This document shows positions 1,270-39,750 of a stretch of 64,000 nt of DNA, piece by piece. The stretch is from Neobacillus ginsengisoli. Its GTDB lineage: Bacteria > Bacillota > Bacilli > Bacillales_B > DSM-18226. The position numbers and the translations under genes are program-made. The notes beneath the pieces are model-generated. The model was not told where the DNA came from. It worked only from the letters and a program-made list of their open reading frames with translations, and ran no database searches. The DNA is taken from contig NZ_JAUSTW010000001.1 in the NCBI RefSeq assembly GCF_030813055.1, positions 1-64,000 of the forward strand. The letters run 5' to 3'. Within the stretch, counting starts at the first letter, position 1; the number at the start of each line of letters is the position of its first letter.

Positions 1270-1296
1270 GGACCTTTAGCTCAGCTGGTTAGAGCA
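1270..1296 (+). pseudogene. duplicated 5' end of tRNA-Ile2
   Basis: These 27 bases are identical to the first 27 bases of the intact tRNA-Ile2 at 1412-1438: the 5' acceptor strand and complete D arm up to GAGCA. After that the sequence departs completely from the tRNA. No matching acceptor 3' strand follows, so this cannot fold as a tRNA. Confidence 0.9.
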
Positions 1297-1371
1297 ACGA
1301 GCAAGTCTTCCTTGAGTATGCTACGAGTTGTACCCATCGAGCTGCTTCTTGATTAGGCTTTCTGAGATGGG
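1295..1371 (+). ncRNA. two-hairpin element, copy 1
   Basis: Hairpin 1 pairs CAAC 1295-1298 with GTTG 1327-1330 and AGCA 1300-1303 with TGCT 1319-1322, around a 15-nt loop containing CTTCCTTGAGTA. Hairpin 2 pairs CCCATC 1333-1338 with GATGGG 1366-1371 and AGCT 1340-1343 with GGCT 1356-1359, around loop GCTTCTTGATTA. The same fold with changed pairs occurs at 1638-1713, so the structure is conserved between the copies. The function is unknown. It is presumably co-transcribed with the rRNA/tRNA operon. Confidence 0.6.
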
Positions 1372-1411
1372 GACAGACAGATTTTAAACATAAGTAAAAG
1401 AACTCTTATTT

Positions 1412-1488
1412 GGACCTTTAGCTCAGCTGGTTAGAGCAGACGGCTCATAACCGTCCGGTCGTAGGTTCGAGTCCTACAAGGTCCACCA
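1412..1488 (+). tRNA. tRNA-Ile2 (CAT, lysidine type)
   Basis: Acceptor GGACCTT/AAGGTCC. The anticodon stem GACGG/CCGTC encloses CTCATAA. It matches the remembered B. subtilis tRNA-Ile2, whose C34 is converted to lysidine by TilS so that it reads AUA. CCA is encoded. Its first 27 bases are duplicated at 1270-1296. Confidence 0.9.
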
Positions 1489-1620: not shown

Positions 1621-1637
1621 CGTCGCGGGGTGGAGCA
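1621..1637 (+). pseudogene. duplicated 5' end of initiator tRNA-Met
   Basis: The 17 bases CGTCGCGGGGTGGAGCA recur exactly at 1762-1778, where they are the start of the intact initiator tRNA plus 3 upstream bases. As at 1270, the match ends at GAGCA and is followed by the two-hairpin element. Confidence 0.85.
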
Positions 1638-1713
1638 CGTTCGAATAAGCTTCTTCGAATATTATTCAGCGCACCGATTGAGCTGCTTCTTGAGTAAGCT
1701 TTCTGAAATCAGG
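1638..1713 (+). ncRNA. two-hairpin element, copy 2
   Basis: Hairpin 1 pairs CGTT 1638-1641 with AGCG 1668-1671 and GAATAA 1643-1648 with TTATTC 1662-1667, loop GCTTCTTCGAATA. Hairpin 2 pairs CC/GATT 1674-1679 with AATC 1707-1710 and GG 1712-1713 (one bulged A) and AGCT 1681-1684 with AGCT 1697-1700, loop GCTTCTTGAGTA. Loop 2 is identical to copy 1 at 11 of 12 positions, while most stem bases differ but still pair. The function is unknown. Confidence 0.6.
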
Positions 1714-1764
1714 GCGACAATTACTCCGATTAGTGTAATGCAACAAATTTATATTTTTTACCGT

Positions 1765-1838
<74 letters not shown>

Positions 1839-1841
1839 TCC

Positions 1842-29263: not shown

Positions 29264-29402
29264 TCTCTTATCCCGAGCTGGTGGAGGGACAGGCCCTATG
29301 AAACCCAGCAACCTGCTATATGAGAAAAACGACCTCTTAATGGTCTTTTTCCTAGCGAAGGTGCTAATCTGACGCAAGGCTCTGACCTTGAACGATAAGA
29401 GT
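29264..29402 (+). ncRNA. SAM-I (S-box) riboswitch aptamer
   Basis: The P1 stem pairs CTCTTATC at 29264 with GATAAGAG ending at 29402. Conserved S-box blocks are present: GAGCTGGTGGAGGGAC, GGCCCTATGAAACCCAGCAACC, and GAAGGTGCTAATCTGACGC. It binds SAM and, when occupied, favours the downstream terminator, so metK is expressed when SAM is low. Confidence 0.95.
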
Positions 29403-39504: not shown

Positions 39505-39708
39505 TTGAAAAAACAGTGATGAGGAATAGTAATGGTTAATACCCGAATTTAGAGAGTTGACGGCTGGTGGGAGTCAACCGGGAACATCATGAACTCGCCT
39601 TAGAGTTGCAAGCATGAACTAAAAAGTAATGTTTGCCGTTTTCCGCGTTAAGGATGAATGAAGCGAGTGTTGACAACACTAATGTGGGTGGTACCGCGGG
39701 AGATACAT
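39505..39708 (+). promoter_or_regulatory. T-box leader of leuS
   Basis: The T-box core TGGGTGGTACCGCG is at 39685-39698. Upstream lies a long stem I region. A CTC codon at 39594-39596 in a GAACTCGCC context is the likely leucine specifier. Uncharged tRNA-Leu would pair with specifier and T-box and stabilise the antiterminator. Confidence 0.93.
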
Positions 39709-39712
39709 ACAA

Positions 39713-39750
39713 TCCTCTCGTCCCGTTTTTGGGATGAGAGGTTTTTTATT
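39713..39750 (+). terminator. T-box-controlled terminator
   Basis: CCTCTCGTCCC pairs with GGGATGAGAGG around GTTTTT and is followed by TTTTTTATTTTTTT. It is the attenuator stem of the leuS leader. Confidence 0.92.

Follow-up and report, generated by a model that had tools for sequence, protein, structure and literature searches.

Two short elements in the 21-tRNA array of the rRNA operon that opens the 64,000-nucleotide stretch of Neobacillus ginsengisoli DNA analyzed here (the window) belong to a family found next to tRNA genes in many related genomes. On balance, and with somewhat better than even confidence, we regard it as a new family of Bacillaceae repeats that are small, mobile but non-autonomous, bear a hairpin and target tRNA genes. 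The usual plan is a tRNA 5' part ending in AGCA, an element of about 80 bases, a spacer of about 35-65 bases and then the intact tRNA. The family displays a common anatomy, a covarying hairpin, a target word and a two-base match at the right end; its sites are occupied in some genomes and empty in others, and tandem copies occur. Operons for tRNAs are regarded as tightly constrained; if correctly interpreted, the family would show either that a mobile repeat can exploit tRNA genes safely in a new manner or that these operons harbor a new RNA. For annotators, it means that partial tRNAs in such arrays can belong to one repeated structure.

The window copies and their relatives

The features of both window copies are collected in Table 1. 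The first-pass annotation had described a 17-base 5' piece of the following tRNA at the head of the fMet copy; the exact 17-base repeat CGTCGCGGGGTGGAGCA (1621-1637 and 1762-1778) was found there, but just 14 of its bases belong to the tRNA (tRNA-fMet nt 1-14, from 1624), the other three being leader bases, and the piece ends in the target word TGGAGCA. Both copies are real, and their limits, formerly given as 1638-1713 and 1295-1371, were corrected to those of the cores in the table. The loop-2 words GCTTCTTGATTA and GCTTCTTGAGTA agree in 11 of 12 positions and are followed by TTCTGA in both copies, exactly as had been described. The shared 22-base loop pattern occurs only at these two sites in the window when up to three mismatches are allowed (0.03 expected). 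Hairpin 2 of the fMet copy contains the conserved A1673/G1713 mismatch, and its C1675/A1711 pair is broken in the window copy. Neither window copy folded better than its shuffles as a single sequence (z +0.82 and +0.52). Elsewhere in the window, a SAM riboswitch (29265-29401) and a T-box leader (39507-39728) scored above the Rfam cut-offs.

Table 1. Coordinates of the two element copies and the adjoining tRNA features in the window
Feature	Position	Strand	Remarks
Duplicated tRNA-Met 5' piece (nt 1-27)	1270..1296	+	exact 27-base repeat of the tRNA start at 1412
Element core, class A copy	1297..1375	+	CM R1 match 1292-1377, 84.8 bits; copy in the training set of the model
Hairpin 2 of the tRNA-Met copy	1329..1375	+	5' strand 1329-1338, 3' strand 1366-1375; covariation across the family
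Spacer before tRNA-Met	1376..1411	+	first bases GAC, as the three bases after GAGCA in the following tRNA-Met
Intact tRNA-Met (CAT)	1412..1488	+	ARAGORN
Duplicated tRNA-fMet 5' piece	1621..1637	+	exact repeat of 1762-1778
Element core, class B copy	1638..1716	+	CM R1 match 1633-1718, 95.7 bits, taking in GAGCA at the left and 2 bases at the right; sequence in the training set of the model
Hairpin 2, class B copy	1670..1716	+	5' strand 1670-1679, 3' strand 1707-1716; covarying lower stem
Spacer, element to intact tRNA-fMet	1717..1763	+	starts AC, usual GT
Intact tRNA-fMet (CAT)	1764..1841	+	ARAGORN; Rfam tRNA 1765-1838, 65.1 bits

A search of genome contigs with the loop pattern only found 18 stretches, 16 of which showed the same arrangement (Neobacillus, Mesobacillus, Metabacillus, Robertmurraya, Bacillus and similar). 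The remaining two (L002 and L011) had no tRNA and were taken as chance; three stretches on viral contigs, none with an ARAGORN tRNA, were likewise judged chance, and the plasmid collection yielded one record only, a 34-base match to the start of the intact tRNA-Met. A covariance model was built from 18 distinct copies on the 15 pairs of hairpin 2 only, and in the 13 genomes reached through the first loci it gave from 1 to 37 matches per genome at 37 to 100 bits. Extended to relatives, as suggested in the first-pass annotation, the model matched 130 of the 397 genomes sampled from the order (E up to 0.001), with none in the other 267 under strict filters. At the class level 9 of 299 genomes matched, all nine being carriers already found in the order-level search. 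As the loci were taken for listed, mostly better-scoring matches, weak copies are under-sampled in what follows.

Leaving out aligned matches shorter than 76 bases and repeats gave 287 distinct contexts; one alignment set reached E = 1, so a few weak copies, Asp ones among them, are included. An ARAGORN tRNA was present downstream on the same strand within 700 nt in 278 of these contexts: fMet in 74, Lys in 55, Phe in 43, Thr-TGT in 36, Asn in 26 and Arg-TCT in 16, followed by the rarer Arg-CCT (8), Met (8), Arg-CCG (5), Asp (4) and three single cases, of which Leu and Ile stem from runs of N. The nine contexts with no such tRNA comprised three that reach the end of the locus (L006, L117 and L207), three that precede a broken tRNA-Arg (L131), the inverted copy in L172, the copy in L144 that stands after its intact tRNA, and L139, whose letters do show an fMet start. 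The orientation was that of the adjoining tRNA or tRNA piece in 286 of 287 contexts. The exception was again the inverted copy, at a tRNA-Lys site (L172:150-320), where the core is flanked by the tRNA 5' piece and the intact tRNA but lies on the opposite strand.

Two further arrangements were noted. A third core class was seen at tRNA-Asp (L172:505-660; L096 and L097), placed after TAGCG in the D-loop and having a different hairpin-2 loop. In L160 and L174, upstream of the matches at 801 and 790, a tRNA-Arg copy apparently contains two elements, the second of them inserted in the D-loop; one ends before GGATAGAGCA and the other after it.

Insertion sites and junctions

Occupied and empty homologous sites, as would be seen with a non-autonomous mobile repeat, were found when the loci of relatives of Bacillus sp. 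FJAT-29814 (G009; L013), one per genome, were compared together with the window, which this close relative matches at 89% over a 901-base array query. The tRNA-Met site was filled in 5 of 20 loci (gap of 145-160 bases), empty in 14 (gap of 3-34) and degenerate in one. The Ser-fMet site was filled in 22 of 25 loci (gap of 132-182) and empty in three (gap of 19-42), and the Val-fMet site was filled in two of six (gap of 165-176) and empty in four (gap of 10-34). The fMet site is occupied by a class B core in the window and by a class A core in G009. Moreover, at one and the same fMet site, cores of both classes are accompanied by spacers of one family (L236 and L240 versus L237 and L243), which indicates that cores have been swapped or re-inserted there.

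The left repeat was compared at fMet (37 genomes) and at Lys, Thr, Phe and Asn (126 copies). Its identity exceeded the cross-genome control up to approximately 34 nt from the junction and faded gradually. A duplication ending exactly at the tRNA start fitted less well, the leader comparison favoring a roughly constant length of about 34 bases from the junction. Tandem copies of the element occur in the arrays, and left pieces inside them had 6 mismatches in 993 sites versus 157 in 4951 sites for single or outermost pieces. Left pieces were perfect with respect to their tRNA in 39 of 44 inner copies versus 159 of 220 outer or single ones (p 0.02). Such fresher inner and decayed outer left pieces are expected if tandem growth renews the inner ones. 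Some cores stand without most of the left piece (L247, L251, and L146 and L162 at 1076), hence the piece looks like a by-product.

The word preceding the junction in the intact tRNA was TAGAGCA in 174 and TGGAGCA in 73 cases (247 of 264), a preference that is partly by construction since GAGCA was built into the search model; the next base was C only once in 264. Among the genes of the fetched loci, AGCA was present at the corresponding place in all 67 of tRNA-Val and all 49 of tRNA-Pro-TGG, with the element in none; in their commonest forms the word is GAGAGCA, or it is TAGAGCA with C as the next base. No element was found in the fetched loci at Thr-GGT (13) or Ser-GGA (19) either, whose commonest forms have C next. 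A defined target sequence of this kind is a further property of non-autonomous mobile repeats. The junction lies after nt 14 at fMet and after nt 25-26 at Lys, Thr, Phe and Asn. A general function through base pairing between the left piece and the 3' half of the tRNA was rejected, as the junction falls in the D-loop at fMet, in some Arg-CCT copies and at Asp.

The right end of the core follows a two-base rule. In 224 copies from 73 genomes, deduplicated from 264 after 14 of 278 with unclear left pieces had been dropped, the two bases after the core equal the two after AGCA in the neighboring tRNA in 93% and 90%, respectively, versus 22% and 26% when other tRNAs are used for comparison. The match falls to 61% at the third base and to the background at the sixth; at Lys the first three bases match in 42, 42 and 14 of 45 copies and at Thr in 29, 28 and 6 of 30. 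Counted once per genome and combination, the two-base match follows tRNA variants in 26 of 28 cases at Phe (AA 15, AT 8, GA 2, AC 1), in 13 of 15 at Asn (TT 7, AT 6) and in 32 of 38 at fMet (GT 29, GC 3), with just 4 of 8 matching at Arg-TCT. The fMet copy of the window (1717-1718) breaks the rule, having AC for GT. Longer continuations of the tRNA after the core were also encountered, of 10 bases in L089 and 11 in L112 and L120, and a tRNA-Arg 3' part was kept after the core in L144, alone among the 287 contexts. Judging from the sequences, the core may once have been situated inside a longer tRNA copy, and the two bases would have been retained longer than neutral decay allows. Simple neutral insertion does not explain why the two bases are kept at Lys and Thr with the third base near chance.

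We propose that a unit composed of the approximately 80-base core with its conserved hairpin and a short spacer enters a tRNA gene directly after AGCA, mostly at T(A/G)GAGCA when the next base is not C; its position would be either the 26/27 junction or a place within the D-loop. The insertion would be accompanied by a duplication of about 34 bases upstream of the junction, presumably arising in the insertion event, leaving a useless tRNA 5' piece at the left and an intact tRNA at the right; the target duplication would thus spare the tRNA. The direct repeats could then permit tandem growth as well as clean loss. A trans-acting enzyme would be expected to recognize the hairpin, as DNA or as RNA, and copies are probably still being gained.

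The conserved hairpin

The first 18 copies had been chosen by their loop letters alone, so the pairing of their stems was unselected. In these copies 98.9% of the 270 hairpin-2 stem cells pair, and seven of the nine pairs of the lower stem were changed on both sides. The covariation score of hairpin 2 was reached by none of 500 shuffles, and slid versions of the stem were only 36-52% paired; the count of further pair types alone was not above the shuffles for hairpin 2 of the same 18 copies. In the larger sets, found with the stem model and hence biased towards it, the seven listed stem pairs were 97-100% canonical in 142 non-redundant class B copies, the two most variable of them showing four pair types, and the listed stem pairs were 87-100% canonical in 46 class A copies. 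An A/G mismatch is conserved close to the foot of the hairpin. The inner stem is nearly invariant, so that covariation cannot test it. With compensatory changes above the controls, hairpin 2 alone behaves like part of a conserved structured RNA.

The hairpin-2 loop was missing or replaced, with the stem and its feet kept, in five copies (L170, L173, L289, L290 and L294). The retention of the stem despite the lost loop speaks against a function of the element residing in the loop only. The idea in the first-pass annotation that the C/U-rich loops might pair with Shine-Dalgarno-like sequences gained no support. The class A core begins CAAC-GA-GC and ends GC-GA-GUUG, and the class B core begins ACG and has CGU in the middle. 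As read from the alignment, in both classes the same middle bases could pair with either the left junction or the right end.

The first-pass annotation had pointed to stem bases that differ between the two window copies and yet pair, and had argued from this for a selected RNA structure rather than a decayed insertion. The first statement stands for hairpin 2; hairpin 1 as it had been drawn is not supported, for no nested run of covarying pairs was seen in it, and the AGCA/TGCT and GAATAA/TTATTC pairings fall in the two classes of different layout. As for the second, hairpin 2 is selected, and such a structure with copies in many relatives excludes a purely decayed insertion, but the element has been inserted too, as seen from the empty sites, target word, duplicated target and tandem copies. 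The choice posed between selection of the structure and insertion is a false one.

Alternative explanations and comparison with known families

The mobile-repeat interpretation has several facts against it. Among 141 class-B left ends (loci L109-L294) we detected no enzyme and no longer or autonomous copy; in 134 the usual hairpin-2 motif followed within 100 nt, and the other seven were variant, diverged or truncated short copies. Y1 transposases (Y1_Tnp) were present in all ten element-rich genomes searched and also in six of ten without a listed element. Reverse transcriptases were missing from four of the ten element-rich genomes, being present in six, and were found in four of ten genomes without a listed element; spread driven by a reverse transcriptase is not required, as G012 has 37 copies and no PF00078 match. 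Same-class cores at different tRNAs showed a median divergence of 0.278 within a genome and 0.295 between genomes, values close enough to argue against a recent burst between tRNA types. The two-base match kept at the right end with the third base near chance at Lys and Thr also counts against it. Possible, if doubtful, is a tRNA-targeting element of a new kind, whose own hairpin would align both ends and which would need two target bases repeated at the right end; it would enter tRNA 5' halves at TRGAGCA, duplicate the target so that the tRNA survives, and persist for a long time in the tRNA precursor as one of its structured parts.

The main rival, which we consider possible but doubtful, is that tRNA operons contain a structured RNA under host selection, which either acts in cis on processing or folding or is cut out of the precursor as a small RNA. 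The flanking tRNA bases would then belong to the recognition, and mobility would only be how the RNA spread long ago. The strong compensatory evolution of hairpin 2 favors this explanation, as does the agreement of the two bases behind the core with the tRNA variants present at Phe, Asn and fMet. In 139 of 264 cases, versus 43.9 expected, the closest counterpart of a core in another genome adjoins the same type of tRNA, which also fits a host RNA. When only elements at other tRNAs are considered, the nearest one shares the genome in 35 of 218 cases versus 7.6 expected, as exemplified by G279 with similar stems at Lys, Phe and Asn; these counts indicate lines mostly tied to the tRNA type with some exchange within genomes. 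In the nine pairs with the most similar spacers the core differs in 26 of 706 positions and the spacer in 27 of 391, a result favorable to the host RNA although these pairs were picked for low spacer distance. Over all 58 pairs the two distances are equal (core 0.197 versus spacer 0.201, core lower in 32), and the test is weak either way since 44% of unrelated spacers pass the orthology filter. Also against a host-selected RNA are the two thirds of sampled genomes that gave no match under strict filters, the many empty homologous sites, the lack of copies at Val or Pro, the copies that have lost or exchanged the hairpin-2 loop, and a left piece that decays or is lost.

An intron- or ribozyme-like unit appears unlikely. 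In such a unit the middle CGU/UGU would pair with the 5' junction or with the 3' ACG/ACA and so align the ends, and excision at the RNA level or reverse insertion would restore AGCA plus the next two tRNA bases. The ability of the same middle bases to pair with both ends, read from the alignment, the position of the core between AGCA and the next tRNA bases with no small target duplication, and the orientation shared with the tRNA in all contexts but one agree with it. On the other hand, the only tRNA-remainder-like sequence after a core (1 of 287, L144) stands beside an intact copy and is without the acceptor 5' strand, a splicing intron would allow undivided single tRNAs, and no Rfam intron or ribozyme family matched over the elements searched. 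Neutral debris, in which tRNA 5' parts were duplicated in tandem, their middle decayed and the hairpins are due to chance, is very improbable. In its favor, the left piece does come from a tRNA, and folding of the window copies is no better than that of their shuffles. In our view, this origin is already refuted by the covariation and the size of the family, with loop conservation, target specificity and the model matches in the first 13 genomes and in 130 of 397 of the order also against it.

No Rfam family reached its gathering score over the elements of the window and five element loci, and relaxed thresholds gave over the elements just tRNA-related, sub-threshold matches; in the open-access literature, among the titles seen, none describing this element was found. 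Bacillaceae-1 RNA (RF01690) is said to lie near rRNA operons. It resembles the element as a two-hairpin Bacillaceae motif with pyrimidine-rich loops, multicopy in some of the same genomes, but was rejected as the family because it had no match at the window elements (E up to 10) or at the five loci (E up to 1), and its listed matches, in 9 of 11 searched genomes, lie at other coordinates than the elements. RF01690 itself is a dispersed repeat in G005 and G003, with 75 and 46 matches, respectively, when E up to 10 is allowed, not all of them reaching the cut-off. The best of the relaxed matches, to the Staphylococcus sRNA S774 (RF02896), lies at an fMet locus (L108:1394-1485) and reaches 38.4 of the 48 bits of the cut-off. 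It extends from the element end across the spacer into the first part of the intact tRNA-fMet, but the alignment is carried by the leader and tRNA start (AUAUUAUCGCGGG-UGGAGCAGU-CGG), the element hairpins remain outside and the window is unmatched. The RF02896 consensus itself ends in the start of tRNA-fMet.

REP/REPIN and non-autonomous repeats derived from IS200/IS605 are short, hairpin-bearing and inserted 3' of a short target word. The element resembles them in all these respects and in the absence of a small target duplication at the core ends, but it occupies only tRNA 5' parts, beside a duplicated intact tRNA and with a flanking repeat of about 34 bases, and Y1 transposases occur also in genomes with no listed element. 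MITEs are likewise small, non-coding, multicopy insertions; in the element no terminal inverted repeats were identified in an unsystematic look, and its flanking duplication is longer than usual. In contrast to tRNA-rebuilding integrative elements, the duplicated part here is the tRNA 5' half and the unit is without an integrase gene; what it has in common with them and with the duplication of CRISPR repeats is a target that stays functional, a long target duplicated per insertion and the formation of tandem units.
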